A stretch of 16,516 bases of DNA, from contig VBJR01000372.1 of NCBI GenBank assembly GCA_005880175.1, forward strand, positions 1 through 16,516. The letters are read 5' to 3'. Source of the DNA: Chloroflexota bacterium. Lineage in GTDB: Bacteria; Chloroflexota; Dormibacteria; Dormibacterales; Dormibacteraceae. Shown here piece after piece: positions 2,634-9,417 of this stretch (its first letter is position 1; each line of letters opens with the position of its first letter). A model generated the notes under the pieces. That model saw only the letters and a program-made list of their open reading frames with translations, ran no database searches and had not been told where the DNA came from. The translations under genes and the position numbers were made by a program.

Positions 2634-3560
2634 ATGCCAGCGTTCGATTACGAGGTGGTCATCATCGGCAGCGGCCCGGCCGGTCTCACCGCCGGCCTGC
2701 ACCTGAGCCGCGCCGGCCGCCGCGCCCTGCTCCTGGAGCGCGGCACGTACGGCGGCAGCCTGGAGGACGTGGACGTGGTCGACGACTACCCCGGCGTCCC
2801 GGACGGCACGACCGGCGCCCAGCTCGGCTCCCGCATGGCCGAGCAGGCGGTGGCCGCCGGGCTGGACCTCCAGCAGGGCGAGGTGACCGCGATCGAGCTG
2901 TTCTCCAGCGGCCGCTGGGTGGTCCGCGACGACGGTCGCAGCCACTCCGCGGGCGTGGTGATCGTGGCCGCCGGCACCCGCTTCCGCAAGCTGGGCGTGC
3001 CCGGCGAGGACCGGCTGCGCGGCCGCGGGGTGATCGACTGCACGCCCTGCGACGCGGGGCTGTTCCGGGGCCGGACGGTGGCCGTGTACGGCTCGGACGA
3101 CCACGCGCTCGCCGACGCGCTGTACCTGGCCGGGCTGCTGGGCCGCGTCCAGGTGCTGACGCCGGGCGCGGCGCTGGACGCCGGCCGGCCGCTGCGCGAC
3201 CGGGCCGCGGCCGACCCGCGCGTCGAGGTCCGGTGCGGGGTGCGCGTCGGCGAGATCCTGGGCGGCGACCGGGTCGAGGGCCTGTCGCTCACCGACCTCG
3301 CCACGGGGGTGGTCGAGACGCTGCCGGTGGACGGCGTCGTGGTCCGCGTGGGCAGCGACCCGAACAGCGACGGCGTGGGCGACGTCCTGGACCTGGACGC
3401 CGGGGGCCGGATCCTCGTCGACGGCGCGCTGGAGACCAGCGCGCCGTACGTGCTCGCTGCCGGCGACGTCCGGGCCGGCTCCCGACCGCGCATTGCCGCG
3501 GCCGCCGGCGACGGCGCGGCGGCCGCCGCGCGCGCGGAGGAGCTGCTGGCGACCCTCTAG
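2634..3560 (+). CDS. Thioredoxin-reductase-like FAD-dependent oxidoreductase with a CxxC pair
   Basis: A 308-residue class-II (low molecular weight TrxR-type) flavoprotein. The FAD-binding site is IIGSGPAG at 10-17. The redox-active pair is C136-T-P-C139 followed by D-A-G, in the position of CATCDG. The C-terminal FAD motif is VLAAGDVRAGS (273-283) with AAAAGDGAAAAA (288-299). The second nucleotide site is degenerate: VAVYGSDDHALADALYLAG (149-167), where TrxR has GGGDSA. The basic residues that read the NADPH 2'-phosphate are missing downstream (LTPGAALDAGR, 176-185). The electron donor and partner are therefore uncertain, and it may be a ferredoxin/NADH-linked or other TrxR paralogue. It starts 17 bp from the divergent TMEM175-like gene. 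AGAGG lies only 1 nt before the ATG, so ribosome-binding evidence for the start is poor; GTG 21 nt downstream is an alternative. Confidence 0.9.
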   Translation: MPAFDYEVVIIGSGPAGLTAGLHLSRAGRRALLLERGTYGGSLEDVDVVDDYPGVPDGTTGAQLGSRMAEQAVAAGLDLQQGEVTAIELFSSGRWVVRDDGRSHSAGVVIVAAGTRFRKLGVPGEDRLRGRGVIDCTPCDAGLFRGRTVAVYGSDDHALADALYLAGLLGRVQVLTPGAALDAGRPLRDRAAADPRVEVRCGVRVGEILGGDRVEGLSLTDLATGVVETLPVDGVVVRVGSDPNSDGVGDVLDLDAGGRILVDGALETSAPYVLAAGDVRAGSRPRIAAAAGDGAAAAARAEELLATL

Positions 3561-3750
3561 GCTGAAGTTCCCTGCTTGCGGTGAACTTGGTTGAACTCGG
3601 ATTCGCGGTGCATGGTCTGGCTACAGCGCCCGGAACGACCTCCAGTGGCGCCGTTGGGAGCGAGTCGGGATGCGCGATCGGGTCTGACCACATCTGCACG
3701 GCCGTCGCGGGATCGGCCCAATACGATCGCCCTCAGGAACTTCGGTCTAG
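3557..3750. repeat. Inverted repeat bounding the gap between two convergent genes
   Basis: CTAGGCTGAAGTTCCCTG (3557-3574) and, read on the minus strand, CTAGACCGAAGTTCCTGAG (3750-3732) match except for two substitutions and one base gap. The core is GAAGTTCC/GGAACTTC (3564-3571, 3736-3743). Each copy includes the TAG stop codon of the gene next to it. The ~160 bp between look less G+C-rich than the surroundings and contain a short direct repeat, GAACTTGG-TT-GAACTCGG (3583-3600). I see no gene in it. It could be a miniature transposable element, a long-range terminator structure, or duplicated gene ends. Confidence 0.5.
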
Positions 3751-4896
3751 GGCCGGCGCGCCCCGCGGTCCAGGCGCACGCCGCGCCGCCACACCGCGAC
3801 GATCTCGCGGGTGGCCGTGACGTCGCGCGTGGGGTCGCCCGCGACCAGCAGCAGGTCCGCCCGCGCGCCGGGGGCGATCCGGCCCCGGTCGCCGAGCCCG
3901 AAGCAGCGCGCGGCAACGGACGTCGCCGCGGCCAGCGCCCGGGCCGGCGCCAGGCCGGCCTGGACGAGCAGCTCCAGCTCGTGGTGCAGCGCGACGCCCT
4001 GGCCCGTGAGCGCGTTCACGACCGGGTTGGGCCGGGCGGGATCCGTCGGCGGCGCGTCCGTGCCCGCCACGACCGGGACTCCGGCGTCCAGCATCGCCCG
4101 GGTGGCGCGCCCGGCGCCGTCCAGGTCGAACCGATCCGTCGCGGGGGGCGAGGGCGGCGGCGGCGCCTCCAGCGCCGCGCGCGCCACCGGGTCGAGGTAC
4201 GGGCCCACCCGCGGGTGCGCGAGCAGGCACCGCCGCGCCTCGTCGGCCGCACCGGCCGACGAGGGCGAGAGCACCGCCGCCACCCGCAGCGTGGTCACGA
4301 CGAACGCCCCGGCGGCGGTGAGGCGGGCGAGGAACGCCGCGTCGAGGTCGAGGCCGTTGAGCACGTGGGCCAGCGCATCGCCCCCGGCGTCGATGAACAT
4401 GCGGGCCTCGTCGCCGGTCTCCGCGTGGACGAGCGCGATGCGGCCGTGCGCGTGCGCGGCCGCGACCACCGCCCTGACCGTCGCCCCGGACAGCCGGGGT
4501 CCTCGGTCGCCGAGGAACACCTTGACGTAGTCGGCGCCCTCGGCCACGCGGGCGGCCACGAACGCGGCTCGACAGGCGGACGTCCGCCGCGTCCCGGCAC
4601 AGCGCGGCCCGGCGCAGCCGGGGCACCAGCGCCGGGCCGCAGAACATGTGCAGCACGGTCGTGACGCCGAACGTCAGCGCCCGCCCGAGGTCGGCGGGGG
4701 AGGGATGGGCGTGGCCGTCGATCAGGCCGGGCAGCAGCGTGCCCCCGCGCCCGTCCACGACCTCGTCGCCCGGACCGGCCGGACCAGGGCCGACCTCGGC
4801 GATCAGCCCCTCGCGCACCAGCACGGCGTCCGCCTCGACCACCCGCTCGCCGTCGAAGACGCGGACGTCCCGGATCAGCGTGCCGCCGGCCGTCAC
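3747..4896 (-). pseudogene. Amidohydrolase (metal-dependent hydrolase, imidazolonepropionase-like), broken by internal deletion and frameshift
   Basis: Two frames together make one amidohydrolase. The upstream part starts at GTG 4896 (GTGA overlap with the previous stop) and has the entry metal pair D-G-H62-A-H64-P. The downstream part, from about 4570 to the stop at 3747, keeps the DYVKVF lysine, LVHAET and ALAHVL histidines, the GTDAPP aspartate and a normal ending (GRIAPGARADLLLVAGDPTRD). Between RDAADVRLSS and AAFVAARVAEG, homologues carry a stretch of about 25-30 residues (often with APGGH). Here the two blocks are almost adjacent and in different frames, with the junction near 4564-4573. 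Thus a deletion, not a single-base slip, separates them. It is last in the TetR-VC0807-amidohydrolase operon. It is non-functional if the sequence is correct. The substrate is unknown. Confidence 0.85.
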
Positions 4897-5483
4897 GCCG
4901 CCGCCTGCCGGCGCAGGCTCCGGATCAGGACGAGGGCGCCGGCCGCGTAGATCGGCAGGCCGACCACGCGGGAGACGATGACGTACGAGCTCGTCGGCAG
5001 CGTCAGCGCGACGAGCGTGTGCGCCGCCGCGTGCACGATCAGGGTGACCCCGGCGATCGCGGTGCCGGCGGCCAGCGCGTGCGGGGTGCCCAGCCGCCGG
5101 CCGAGCAGCCCGAGCAGCGGCCGCCGGATCGCGATGGAGACCACGCAGGCCAGCCCGAGCGCGCCGGTCACCACGGCGTCGTGCAGCTTCAGCGGCAGCG
5201 AGCTGCCGCCCGTCAGCACCGACACGACGGCGGCGCCGGCGAACGCGGCGGTCCCCGCGAGCGCGACGGGGTCCACCCGGCGCCAGACGGCGAGCCGGAG
5301 GACCGTCCAGGCCGCGGGGACCGCGCCCCCGATCGCCAGGGCCGCGGCGTCGCCGCCGGCGTGGGGCCGGACCAGCCAGTACACGACGGCCGGCAGGAGG
5401 AAGCCGGCCAGCAGGCCCGGCGCCAGCTCGCGCATCCGGCCCGCCATGCCCGGTCCCGTGGCGCCGCGGGTCACGGCGCTCAC
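4893..5483 (-). CDS. VC0807-like integral membrane protein
   Basis: A 196-residue protein with about six membrane segments. Its features recall the VC0807 family: an N-terminal helix pair around LLAGFLLPAVVYWLV, a middle block SSLPLKLHDAVVTGALGLA followed by IRRPLLGLLGRRLG, and the closing helix after LTLPTSSYVIVSRVVG. The family has no firmly established function that I know. The GTG at 5483 is chosen because it overlaps the TetR stop (GTGA); ATG codons 12 and 16 residues further on are alternatives. Its stop overlaps the amidohydrolase start in the same way, so the three genes are one translationally coupled operon, presumably under the TetR regulator. A role in expelling or sensing the regulator's ligand is only a guess from context. 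Confidence 0.75.
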   Translation of the reverse strand: MSAVTRGATGPGMAGRMRELAPGLLAGFLLPAVVYWLVRPHAGGDAAALAIGGAVPAAWTVLRLAVWRRVDPVALAGTAAFAGAAVVSVLTGGSSLPLKLHDAVVTGALGLACVVSIAIRRPLLGLLGRRLGTPHALAAGTAIAGVTLIVHAAAHTLVALTLPTSSYVIVSRVVGLPIYAAGALVLIRSLRRQAAA

Positions 5484-6091
5484 CGGTCCGCTCCGGCGTC
5501 GCCCACGACCTGCCGGATGGCCTCCCGGATCACGTCGGCCAGGCTGCCCGTGCCCCCCGACTGCACCCAGTGCGCGGTCGCGACCCGCGTCGCGCTGGTG
5601 ACGGCCGCCGCGACCACCCTGGGGTGGAGGCCGGCCGCGTCGGCCTCGGTGCGCTCGGCGATCGCCCGGGCCAGCGGGCGCTCCGAGGCCACGATCGCCT
5701 TCAGGTACTCGCCCCGCAGGGCTGGCGAGGAGATCACGAGGCGGATGCGTTCGACGTGGTCCCGGTCCACGCGGTCCGCGGCGAGGTGCTGGCCGGCGAC
5801 CGCGTGGCACAGCGACTCGACGAGCGGCTCGTCCGCCGGCCGCCGGAGCAGCGCCTCGGCCGTCGCCGCGGCGCGGTCCACGCCGATGGAGACGATCGCC
5901 TCCTCCTTGCTCGCGAAGTAGTTGTTGAACGTCCGCGCCGACACGCCCGCCTCGGCGGCGACGTCCTCGACGCGCACGTGCTCCAGCCCGCGCTCCAGGG
6001 CCAGCCGCAGGGCCGCCTGCGCCAGCGCCTCGCGCGTGGCCAGCTTCTTCCGCTCCCGCAGGCCGACGGGAGCCGGTGTCCCGGCGCTCAC
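5480..6091 (-). CDS. TetR/AcrR-family transcriptional regulator
   Basis: A 203-residue regulator. The N-terminal DNA-binding domain (about residues 12-62) has LRERKKLATREALAQAALRLALERG followed by the helix-turn-helix VEDVAAEAGVSARTFNNYFASKEE, a textbook TetR sequence. The rest is a helical ligand domain of normal length with no recognisable specificity. The GTG at 6091 is chosen because TAGAGT stands 7 nt before it with a TTGCGC -35 at 17-bp spacing, which would put the mRNA start at the codon itself. The frame stays open to a TTG at 6127, but that lies within the -35 and operator. It is first gene of an operon with the VC0807-like and amidohydrolase genes and very likely represses itself through the double operator at 6110-6147. 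Confidence 0.93.
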   Translation of the reverse strand: MSAGTPAPVGLRERKKLATREALAQAALRLALERGLEHVRVEDVAAEAGVSARTFNNYFASKEEAIVSIGVDRAAATAEALLRRPADEPLVESLCHAVAGQHLAADRVDRDHVERIRLVISSPALRGEYLKAIVASERPLARAIAERTEADAAGLHPRVVAAAVTSATRVATAHWVQSGGTGSLADVIREAIRQVVGDAGADR

Positions 6092-6098
6092 CCGGCCG

Positions 6099-6127
6099 AC
6101 TCTAACACGATCTTGCGTATCGCGCAA
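6099..6127 (-). promoter_or_regulatory. Promoter of the TetR operon (leaderless)
   Basis: On the minus strand the -35 TTGCGC (6127-6122) is followed by 17 nt and the -10 TAGAGT (6104-6099). Seven nucleotides later comes the GTG start at 6091, so transcription should begin at or next to the start codon. The -35 overlaps the operator palindrome. Confidence 0.65.
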
Positions 6128-6154: not shown

Positions 6155-7807
6155 TCAGTAGCGGAGGTGGTTCGGGACGAGGCCGCGGTACTTGCGGACC
6201 AGCGCGTCCCACCCGGCGGGCAGCGTCACCGGCTTCGTCACCCACGTGCTGGAGCCGTACGCCATGCCCATGAACGCGCCGGCGCCGCCCGACACGATGA
6301 TCCGGAGCGAGGCGGGGCTGCGCAGCAGCGGGGTCGGGTCCTCCGCGTTGAGCGGCGGCCGCACCCGCTGCATCCCCGGCGTGCCCCAGAACTCGGGCGT
6401 GCGGTAGGCCGGGACGCGCGCGTACTCGTACAGGTACGAGGCCAGCTCGGACTTCGTCCAGCCGGCGTCGGCCAGCGTCTGCGCGTGGCCGGGCGGCAGC
6501 AGCAGGGTCAGCTGGCGCCATCGCGGCACCATGTTCGACATGATCGCGCGCAGGATGCCCTTGTCGTCCGACCCGTACGGCCAGATCTGCAGGTACGAGT
6601 TGGGGAACGAGACGGTCAGGCAGCTCTCGTCGCGCTGAAAGCCGTGCTGGACGTGCAGCGGCTCCCAGTCCGCGATCGCCTCCTCGTTCTCGGCGGTGAC
6701 CATCGAGTACTTGCCCGGGTTGCCCTGGACGCCCATGTCCTCCAGGCCCTTGCGGGCCCCGCCCAGGTTCTTGACGATCAGGCCCATCGCGCGCCCGATC
6801 GCGGCGTTGGCGATGTCGCCGGGGCTCAGCGCGCCCTGGCCGCCGTTGACGTGAAGCTGCTCGCGGAGCGGCCCGTTGACGATCCAGAACGGCGCCCAGG
6901 AGCCGGTGCTCACCTCGAACGTGCCGAACGCCGCCCTGGGGTCGAGCAGCGCCTCGACGCCCGCGATCAGCAGCGGCAGGTACGTCGGCAGCGCCCCCGC
7001 CATCACGGCGTTGACCGCGATCTTCTCGACCGTGACCTTGCCCAGGCGCGGGATCATCTTGCCGACCAGGTGGTCGCGGGGCAGGTCGGTCCCGGTCAGC
7101 ATCTCCTCGACGGCCGCCTGGGTGGGCGGGACGATCGGGAGGCCGTCGGTCCAGCCCCGGCGGTAGAAGAACCGCTGCACCTCGGCCAGGTCGCCCGCGA
7201 AGACGATGCCCTCGGTGCCGATGGTCTCGGGCGGCGGCGGCGACTGCTCGTCCGACGTGAGGGGGGCGGTCAGCGCCGCGACGATGTCGTCGATGACGGC
7301 GTGGACGCCGGAGGCGATCCGGTCGGGCTCGGTGCACTCACAGGGCACCGTCTCGGTGACGACACGGACGCCGGGCATGCCCTTCCCGGAGGCGGCGGAC
7401 CGGGCGTCCAGCGCGAACCCCGCGTTGACCAGCGCGACGGCCGGCCTGCGGAGGCGCTCGGTGAAGACTGCGTCGTACAAACTGTACTTGGTGCAGGACC
7501 CTCAATCGCCCACGGCGTGGATGACCGCGTCGACCTCCTTCACCCACTCCTCGTAGCGCGCCCGGTCCGCGGTCTCGGCGACCTCGAGGTTGGCCGTCCT
7601 GCCGAACCGCGCGATCGTCACCTCGTCGCCGAATCGGGCGCGGAGCTCGACCTCGACGGCGTCGTTGATCGGCTTGCCGGCGACCTTCCCGTTGTGGAAC
7701 AGGCCGATCCGGCGGCCGCGCAGGTCCGGGAGCCGGGGGTTGATGCCCTCCAGCGCTATCGGATCCACCTCGGCCCACGGGCTCATGACCTCGTAGCTTC
7801 CGCCCAT
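6155..7807 (-). CDS. UGSC-family selenoprotein (in-frame TGA read as selenocysteine at codon 102)
   Basis: Reading through the TGA at 7504-7502 gives a continuous 550-residue protein in which the TGA falls exactly at the first position of U-G-S-C: AVGD-U102-G-S-C105-TKYSLYDAVF. UGSC proteins are a known family with Sec or Cys at this place, first noticed in metagenomic selenoproteome surveys. Residues ~20-100 form a Rossmann-like first half (LRGRRIGLFHNGK, then VDAVIHAVGD). The UGSC domain continues to ~175 (CECTEPDRIASGV). A second domain (~195-550) begins AEVQRFFYRRGWTDGLPIVPPTQAAVEEML, a motif I associate with the same uncharacterised reductase-like group. The ATG at 7807 is preceded by GGGAGGG with good spacing. 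It sits 41 bp after the FAD oxidoreductase stop, so co-transcription is likely. The reaction is unknown; a selenol/thiol redox or reductive role is inferred from the U-x-x-C pair. Confidence 0.88.
7468..7504 (-). promoter_or_regulatory. Selenocysteine UGA codon and candidate bacterial SECIS hairpin
   Basis: The UGA is at 7504-7502. Eighteen nucleotides downstream on the mRNA there is a 5-nt loop AGUUU (7483-7479) closed by GUAC/GUAC (7487-7484, 7478-7475). Below it lie an internal loop (ACCAA/GAC) and a second stem CUGC/GCAG (7496-7493, 7471-7468). The loop-to-UGA distance and the G at the second loop position agree with the general bacterial SECIS description. The stems are short, so the structure is only a candidate; the protein motif is the stronger evidence. 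Confidence 0.5.
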
Positions 7808-7848
7808 CGTCCAGGACCCTCCCAACTGCCGTACTAGTGTTCCAGCTG

Positions 7849-9417
7849 TCAGGGTAGCGGGCTTCGGCCGTCTCCGGGAGACCGGCCCAGGTCGGCCAGC
7901 ACCGCGCGGGCCGCGTTGTGGCCGGCGCAGCCGATGACGCTGCCGGCCGGGTGGCAGCCGGCGCCCGCCGCGTACACGCCGTCCACGCCGAGGCGGTAGG
8001 GCAGCCGGCCGGCGAGCGCGACGGCGTTGTCCACGTGGTCGATGTTGCCGTGGGTGATGCCGAAGTGGCGCTCGATGTCCGCCGGGGCGAGCGCGTGCAC
8101 GTCCACCACCAGGTCGCGGAGGCCGGGCGCGAACCGCTCCGCGAACGCGAGCAGGCGCTCGACGTAGCGCTCCCGCTCAGCGTCCCACGTGGAGCCGGCG
8201 GGGACATGGGGTACCCCCTGGACGAAGAACGCCGACGAGTGGCGGCCGGCCTCGTCCCGCAGCGACGGGTCGAGCAGCGAGTGCAGGTACCACTCGACGG
8301 GCGGCAGCGGGTCGAGCCGGCCCGCGCCGGCCGCGTCGAACGCCGCCCGCACCGCGGTCAGCACGCTGCCGTCCGCGGCGGGCTCGGGCAGGAGGTGCAC
8401 GGTGGTCGAGTGCTGGCCGCGGGGCTCCGGGAGCGCCGCGAACGTGGGCAGGTCCGCGAGCGCCAGGTTGACCTTCATCGTCTGGCCCCGCGACCCCTCG
8501 ACGTAGCCGTCGATGCGCTCGCGGAGCGCCGGTGGGCAGGCGTCGCCGAGCAGCGCGGGGATGCGGAACGGGTCGGTGGCGACGACGACCGCCTTCGCTG
8601 GCACCTCCTCGCCGGCGGCGGTCACCACCCCGGCGGCGGCGGCACCGTGCACCGAGACGCGGTCCACGGCGATCCCGGTCCGGATCGCCGCCCCGGCCGC
8701 CGCGGCGCGGTCCGCGATCGACCGGGTGACGGTGCCCATGCCGCCGCGCACGACCATCCACGTGCCGCCGGCGCCCGGCAGCCGGCACATGTTGTGGACG
8801 AGCAGGTTGTGGCCGCTGCCCGGCCGCCACGGCGAGCCGCTCAGACCGGGCATCCCGTCCGTGACCGCGTACATCGCGACCAGCAGCTCGCTCTCGAACC
8901 CGAACCGCGACAGGTAGTCCACCGCCGAGCCGGTGACCAGGCGGACGAACGTCTCCCGCAGGGCCGGCCGGACGTACCGCTCGGCGGTCTCCTCGACGCC
9001 GCCCGGCTCGGCCAGCCAGGCGCCGGCCAGGTCGTCGCGGAGCGCCCCCAGCTCGGCGCCCAGCGCTGCGTTGGCGCGCCAGTCGCGCTCGCTGAACTGG
9101 GCGTGCGCGGCGGCGGGATCGGCGCCGAGGAGCAGGAAGCGGCCGTCCAGCGCGGGCAGGAAGTAGTGCGGGTCGCGGCGGACCAGGGGCAGGTCGAGGT
9201 CGAGCGCGGCCAGCAGCTCGGGCGGCATCAGGCCGAGCAGGTACGCGCCGGTCGAGGCGGCGAGCCCCGGCGCCCGGGCGAACGGCCGCTCGGTGCGGCA
9301 GGCCCCGCCGACCACGTCCGCCCGCTCCAGGACCTCGACCGACAGCCCGGCCCGCGCCAGCAGCGCGGCCGCGACCAGCCCGTTGTGGCCCGCGCCCACG
9401 ACGACGACATCGCGCAT
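7849..9417 (-). CDS. FAD-dependent oxidoreductase, PYROXD2/phytoene-desaturase-like (NAD(P)/FAD amine-oxidase superfamily)
   Basis: A 522-residue flavoprotein, normal for the PYROXD2/CrtI-like branch. The N-terminus is the dinucleotide-binding motif VVVGAGHNGLVAAALLARAG (5-24), followed by VEVLERADVVGGACRTE, which has the ribose-binding Glu and the family's GG. The C-terminus carries the second FAD motif GVYAAGAGCHPAGSVIGCAGHNAARAVL, again typical of this branch. It is not a certain carotenoid enzyme: no carotenoid biosynthesis neighbours are present, and proteins of this type have varied or unknown substrates. It precedes the UGSC selenoprotein by 41 bp on the same strand, so the two may act together. 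It diverges from the phosphoesterase gene across 72 bp. The ATG start has AAGGG immediately before it, too close for a normal ribosome site. Confidence 0.9.
   Translation of the reverse strand: MRDVVVVGAGHNGLVAAALLARAGLSVEVLERADVVGGACRTERPFARAPGLAASTGAYLLGLMPPELLAALDLDLPLVRRDPHYFLPALDGRFLLLGADPAAAHAQFSERDWRANAALGAELGALRDDLAGAWLAEPGGVEETAERYVRPALRETFVRLVTGSAVDYLSRFGFESELLVAMYAVTDGMPGLSGSPWRPGSGHNLLVHNMCRLPGAGGTWMVVRGGMGTVTRSIADRAAAAGAAIRTGIAVDRVSVHGAAAAGVVTAAGEEVPAKAVVVATDPFRIPALLGDACPPALRERIDGYVEGSRGQTMKVNLALADLPTFAALPEPRGQHSTTVHLLPEPAADGSVLTAVRAAFDAAGAGRLDPLPPVEWYLHSLLDPSLRDEAGRHSSAFFVQGVPHVPAGSTWDAERERYVERLLAFAERFAPGLRDLVVDVHALAPADIERHFGITHGNIDHVDNAVALAGRLPYRLGVDGVYAAGAGCHPAGSVIGCAGHNAARAVLADLGRSPGDGRSPLP

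Follow-up and report, generated by a model that had tools for sequence, protein, structure and literature searches.

Does an in-frame TGA end a gene, or does it encode selenocysteine (Sec)? The question is raised by a 16,516-nucleotide stretch (the window; positions 1 to 16,516 of contig VBJR01000372.1, assembly GCA_005880175.1) from a Chloroflexota bacterium, probably a Dormibacterota-like soil organism. Its reverse strand carries a gene of the UGSC family in which one TGA falls at the U of the U-G-S-C motif. We conclude that this UGA, codon 102, is almost certainly decoded as Sec. Our best overall explanation, in which we have high confidence, is that the gene encodes a two-domain selenoenzyme that would be fed by a TrxB-like reductase and would be related to GrdB and PrdB, which are the selenoprotein subunits of glycine reductase and D-proline reductase, respectively.

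One reading frame across the TGA

Translation bears out the original observation that the frame from 7807 to 6155 is open except for a single TGA (7504-7502), within the context AVGD-(TGA)-GSC-TKYSLYDAVF. The frame comprises 551 codons (101 sense codons, the TGA, 448 sense codons and a terminal TGA), and the motif is spelled TGA-GGG-TCC-TGC, which places a Cys at +3 from the U. The gene could start either at the ATG at 7807 or at the TTG at 7825. Two apparent open reading frames (ORFs), 7807-7502 and 7501-6155, had also been named. The frame is indeed split at the TGA, but the bounds of the mechanically called ORFs differ slightly, being 7825-7502 (107 residues) and 7480-6155 (441 residues), both with TTG starts.

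Both halves look coding because third-position GC is high on either side of the TGA (0.95 on the 5' side and 0.984 on the 3' side). Scored separately, they match the UGSC family PF24696 with 35.8 and 40.4 bits, and once joined they reach 99.1 bits over residues 7-180, the gathering score being 25 bits. With the TGA at the U and the Cys at +3, the protein therefore has the features of a PF24696 member. UGSC selenoproteins have been described before. A 2008 study (PMC2398784) already reports them, tabulates 255 Sec and 21 Cys forms, and describes a UGSC/Unknown_1 fusion that resembles the window protein in joining UGSC to a conserved domain of unknown function. The window protein is unlike the family at large in being fused to a 350-residue domain.

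Conservation of the TGA among relatives

Among the best 120 of 4112 protein homologues, one of which (P0002) is the window's own ORF, 118 start downstream of the Sec position, the stop in their contigs being deduced from the protein starts and not read in the DNA. The larger half of the gene has therefore been recorded as falsely started hypothetical proteins. The other two homologues, P0079 and P0093, are full length and carry a Cys at the position of the TGA; the in-frame UGA thus aligns with the Sec/Cys of homologues, as expected of a selenoprotein. That standard callers would split such a gene, as had been predicted, is exemplified by the counterpart on the Paracoccus plasmid pFER4, which is annotated as two hypothetical proteins.

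The DNA itself was read in genome contigs. A profile search with alignment A1 returned at least 571 relatives, the best 80 loci of which were kept and supplemented by loci L097-L131 from a further genome search. A six-frame scan of the resulting 115 loci with the UGSC profile yielded 148 domain matches in 109 loci, with TGA at the Sec position in 134 and TGC in one. The remaining 13 have neither Sec nor Cys (Ala in four, Thr, Met and Val in two each, then Asn, Leu and Gln). The assertion that UGSC proteins carry Sec or Cys at this site thus holds for the TGA forms and the Cys form, and fails for these 13. Since loci were picked by likeness to the fusion, mainly to its C-terminal domain, the counts speak for UGSC domains fused to, or lying beside, that domain. 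TGA-carrying relatives span many bacterial groups, and Cys forms were found in Sphingomonas (L036), on haloarchaeal plasmids (L002, L083-L085) and on plasmids of Variovorax and Arthrobacter (L086, L090, L092). A local sequencing error in the window is unlikely, because homologues start past the same position and the relatives' DNA shows the TGA directly.

The pair of UGSC and C-terminal domains can be multiplied within a genome. G177 (Chloroflexota) gives 27 fusion matches and so has many copies of the pair, each UGSC piece among the matches listed containing at least one TGA.

A hairpin downstream of the UGA

Relatives have a hairpin at +14 to +32 (counting the U of UGA as 0), typically GUCGUGGA-GUG-UCCACGAC, and at this position the window has one resembling a selenocysteine insertion sequence (SECIS), whose loop begins alike but whose stem bases differ. 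As expected of a selenoprotein gene, it lies at the family's position downstream of the UGA and has GU in its apical loop. We examined 117 distinct TGA loci out of 120 (three duplicates or short ends were removed). In 62 of them all 5 bp of the inner stem are paired, whereas shuffling the 3' sides 500 times gave 23.7 such loci on average and 34 at most, and 14 distinct perfect stems occur across the TGA loci, including that of the window. The shuffle gives no strict probability because the loci are related and the encoded residues covary too. The conserved TGA and this positionally conserved hairpin with compensated stems support the original proposal of Sec at the U of the motif.

Codon choice was compared in the same segment. 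Loci L097 and L098, whose proteins are 64-65% identical to that of the window, share an identical run of 18 bases at the window hairpin. Where residues just after the UGA are identical, the window uses the same codons as these loci in 9/10 and 10/10 cases, as against 171/313 and 145/269 in the rest of the gene (p 0.024 and 0.0025). The counts after the UGA were 7/8, 7/9 and 8/9 for L003, L005 and L006 (p 0.064, 0.11 and 0.015). Across 11 window genes, AGT accounts for one of 153 Ser codons, and that one sits in the hairpin loop. TTG accounts for three of 310 Leu codons, two being starts, and the lone internal one is also in the loop, adjoining the AGT, a pattern that we spotted post hoc. In the family, RNA after the UGA folds more stably than synonymous shuffles (mean z -0.91, standard error of the mean (SEM) 0.14, n=63 genes, window included), mean z at six other offsets ranging from -0.25 to +0.22.

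Sec genes in the relatives' genomes

We surveyed Sec genes in 40 genomes, the sources of 40 of the 80 loci; 34 of these genomes carry the TGA form and six do not. The limit for tRNA-Sec was 60 bits, which was our own choice, and SelB was taken at its cut-off. One or both were present in 33/34 TGA genomes and in 2/6 of the others (Fisher p 0.0008). Taken alone, tRNA-Sec gave 28/34 versus 2/6 (p 0.026) and SelB 31/34 versus 2/6 (p 0.005). All 14 control genomes give a tRNA-Sec match at E <=0.001, with five exceeding the family's 47 bits, and two have SelB over its cut-off. G201 and G185, the closest genomes found, both have a tRNA-Sec of 66 bits and a full SelB. Within the class of G201, seven of 29 genomes are without a tRNA-Sec of at least 60 bits, including the TGA-form G281 and G273.

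Sec genes also occur next to the fusion. In three loci (L003, L004 and L027), it has selB, tRNA-Sec and a TrxB-like gene as neighbors, none farther away than about 8 kb, the order in L027 being selB, trxB-like, tRNA-Sec, transporter binding protein and UGSC fusion. A selB match beside UGSC was seen among the remaining loci only in L001, from Paracoccus plasmid pTAV4 (L138/L001), which carries a TGA-form UGSC gene, a separate gene for the C-terminal domain, selB and tRNA-Sec. On pFER4 (L139, 1542-18143), trxB, selA and selB are annotated and a stop interrupts the UGSC gene at the corresponding position; the examined stretch of this plasmid yielded no tRNA. Together, the relatives' conserved TGA, the hairpin and the Sec genes in the relatives' genomes support the prediction of one 550-residue protein. 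The hairpin just 3' of the UGA would direct Sec insertion to yield a two-domain selenoenzyme, a mechanism that these data support short of proof for the host. To the original inference that the host has a Sec machinery, the relatives' genomes lend indirect support only. Our literature search returned nothing combining Dormibacter with selenocysteine.

Other observations concern hosts and mobility. Clostridial, spirochaete and deltaproteobacterial fusions (L009, L010, L012, L024, L026 and L042) carry Ala, Met or Val in place of Sec, and the clostridial genomes among these (G008, G010 and G020) have neither tRNA-Sec of at least 60 bits nor SelB over its cut-off. Plasmid pFER4 also has a cysteine-desulfurase gene and a separate C-terminal-domain gene. 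Both pFER4 and pTAV4 look like carriers of a plasmid-borne selenium island. The Acidovorax sp. T1 plasmid p2-T1 (L087, 7929-10424) carries a TGA-form UGSC fusion with a PEP-mutase-family (phosphoenolpyruvate mutase) gene upstream. This plasmid belongs to group IncP, was typed as conjugative and also holds transposases of the IS1071 and IS91-like kinds; its selenoprotein gene is possibly mobile.

Predicted fold and possible relation to GrdB and PrdB

AlphaFold2 modeled the whole protein from 79 sequences with a pLDDT of 94.4 and a pTM of 0.93. The UGSC domain is predicted to alternate strands (E) and helices (H) in the order E33-38, H44-62, E64-69, H82-90, E94-100, H103-118, E123-128, H129-141, E148-152 and H161-180. 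Sec102 lies between strand 94-100 and helix 103-118, and Sec102 and Cys105 would act as a redox pair where this helix begins. A Trx-like fold has been proposed for UGSC in PMC2398784. The modeled order appears unlike that of thioredoxin. Matches to solved structures were generic, with no Trx among the matches listed, which excludes nothing.

A search with GRDB (PF07355) gave matches in 10/19 genomes, and in 15/16 of the fetched GRDB loci the open frame runs straight into a TGA, which in 13/15 reads through as UxxC. When the 15 read-through GRDB sequences were aligned with the UGSC profile by hhalign, the Sec columns superposed (probability 90.6, E 1.3e-6), and nine controls (a reversed template, five column shuffles and three other families) gave a probability of at most 0.9. 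On this profile comparison, the UGSC domain may well be distantly related to the part of GrdB/PrdB that bears Sec, and we lean toward common ancestry of the two. A further parallel would be re-reduction by Trx, as proposed here for the UGSC enzyme and as mentioned for glycine reductase in PMC13188914. The systems also differ. PF07355 does not match UGSC proteins, and the C-terminal domain of the window protein has no likeness to GrdE (probability 0.1). UGSC hosts include taxa that are presumably aerobic. PrdB/GrdB-like (PF07355) genes in L143-L156 and L158 are themselves TGA-interrupted, mostly at UxxC, in hosts such as SAR202, Binatia and gammaproteobacterial metagenome-assembled genomes.

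The C-terminal domain occurs across many bacterial groups and in haloarchaea, fused to UGSC or encoded by an adjacent gene. It gave no Pfam match and no Foldseek match at E <=0.001, and is probably the Unknown_1 domain of the 2008 fusion. Speculatively, it could help to bind the substrate.

The available parts of two reviews (PMC9312934, 2022, and PMC13188914, 2026) list the UGSC family without a function. Neither the profile similarity to GrdB/PrdB nor a TrxB-like companion was found in the available parts of the UGSC literature that we searched, and a statement on function may exist elsewhere. The relation to GrdB/PrdB and the dedicated TrxB partner may be new.

Neighboring genes and a candidate electron donor

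The window encodes a TrxB-like flavoprotein at 2634-3560. TrxB-like matches occur in 19/128 sequences (127 loci and the window), many loci having short flanks. We assessed linkage by pairing contigs of identical base count, taken as the same contig. The best 120 listed UGSC-fusion homologues and the TrxB-like list (117 usable) have 16 contigs in common, whereas jittering the sizes gave 1.3 on average and never more than 6; those in common include contigs of 371,024, 168,323, 105,062 and 61,421 bases. This gene association makes a TrxB-coupled redox enzyme likely. The oxidized Sec-Cys pair would be re-reduced by NADPH through the nearby TrxB-like flavoprotein, directly or via thioredoxin.

The flavin adenine dinucleotide (FAD)-dependent oxidoreductase gene upstream of the UGSC gene is likely to belong to the same operon, and its homologue list (118 usable) has six contigs in common with the UGSC list. 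With the query-supplying loci counted in, 23/128 sequences hold tripartite tricarboxylate transporter binding proteins, 4/128 PEP-mutase-type proteins and 3/128 aconitase X. The enzyme could, speculatively, reduce a small organic compound, probably a carboxylic one; that the substrate is an organic acid is a tentative suggestion. Among the matches listed, the nearest named relatives belong to Candidatus Dormibacteraeota (74-79% in the UGSC part and 80-82% in the FAD gene), and one 89% match to the UGSC part is labeled Terriglobales.

Features of the window discussed in the text (coordinates on the window)
Feature	Coordinates	Strand	Basis or remark
Putative UGSC fusion selenoprotein gene	6155..7807	-	550 residues, Sec at 102; alternative TTG start 7825
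UGSC domain (PF24696), residues 7-180	7268..7789	-	Pfam match and AlphaFold2 model
In-frame TGA, Sec codon 102, U of the UGSC motif	7502..7504	-	translation and TGA in relatives
SECIS-like apical hairpin GUACA-GUU-UGUAC	7475..7487	-	+17 to +29, U of UGA = 0
C-terminal domain, residues 202-550, no Pfam family	6158..7204	-	probably published Unknown_1
Thioredoxin-reductase-like flavoprotein, CTPC motif, proposed electron donor	2634..3560	+	TIGR01292 246 bits, under cut-off of 343
FAD-dependent oxidoreductase, phytoene-desaturase type	7849..9417	-	directly upstream of UGSC gene, same strand
TetR regulator resembling MftR	5480..6127	-	TIGR03968 83.8 bits, under its cut-off

Two side observations concern further genes. 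L132 gave the best match to the FAD gene within the Chloroflexota sample (61% identical to that of the window), and this match contains one in-frame TGA. An amidohydrolase-like gene in the window (3733-4896, reverse strand) appears to change frame near 4559, which may reflect a frameshift or an error of assembly.

Weighing the alternatives

Several results weigh against our explanation. The protein misses the NF041046 equivalog cut-off (76.9 bits versus 125), and we have therefore placed it in PF24696 and not in that equivalog. No Sec gene was found within the window, where ARAGORN detected no tRNA gene either. When both tRNA-Sec and SelB are demanded, the genome counts become 26/34 versus 2/6 (p 0.055), and one TGA genome, G023, has neither a tRNA-Sec of 60 bits nor SelB over its cut-off. 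The four outer stem positions of the window's hairpin hold just one standard pair, and the window's RNA after the UGA is less stable than its synonymous shuffles (z +1.1), so that hairpin stability is lacking in this gene and is seen as a family average alone. Five Cys-form genes average z -0.65 (SEM 0.25) at the same place. Cys-form genes need no SECIS, and the stability signal is therefore not clean. TrxB-like matches fall to 13/122 sequences once six query suppliers are removed. Finally, PF07355 has no match at E <=1 in 24 members of A1; the relation to GrdB/PrdB is therefore one of remote similarity, not of membership.

If the TGA were a true stop, the gene would be decaying or would encode separate proteins of 101 and 441 residues. 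The occurrence of the C-terminal domain as a separate gene in relatives, the unexceptional stability of the window's hairpin and the 13/148 UGSC domains with neither Sec nor Cys would fit, but the break falls within the UGSC domain and not at a domain boundary, third-position GC is kept on either side of it, the TGA is kept in 134/148 matches from many bacterial groups, and the hairpin stems are compensated. We regard a true stop as very improbable. A genetic code in which UGA stands for a common amino acid such as Trp or Gly would explain a frame that is open through one TGA, but its probability is close to nil: 11 further ORFs of the 16 checked, plus the UGSC gene, end in TGA, the other 15 checked ORFs of the window have no internal TGA, and the aligned residue is the Sec/Cys of UGSC. 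A more serious rival accepts the selenoprotein and sees in it a thiol oxidoreductase with a thioredoxin fold that serves in defense against peroxide or disulfide stress, not a catabolic reductase of the GrdB/PrdB kind. TrxB partners and a UxxC where a helix begins are compatible with this as well; the superposed Sec columns and a modeled strand/helix order that appears to differ would speak against it, and we consider it unlikely, though by far the least improbable of the three. We therefore retain the UGA-decoded, TrxB-fed selenoenzyme related to GrdB/PrdB as the best explanation.

Implications

Reading through the UGA reveals a common two-domain selenoenzyme with a recognizable candidate electron donor. 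It is conceivable, although we hold this broader picture only tentatively, that UGSC is a separate branch of the GrdB/PrdB superfamily and not a thioredoxin-fold family. Together with the Unknown_1-type domain, fused or encoded by the adjoining gene, and a dedicated TrxB-like reductase, it would then make up a reductase system that is widespread, present in multiple copies and carried on plasmids. Many soil and water bacteria, presumably aerobic, would use this system for glycine-/proline-reductase-like reductive chemistry on organic acids outside Stickland fermentation. If the link to GrdB/PrdB is true, a large set of uncharacterized selenoproteins would gain a testable chemistry, and there would be a metabolic reason for the use of selenium in these soil bacteria.
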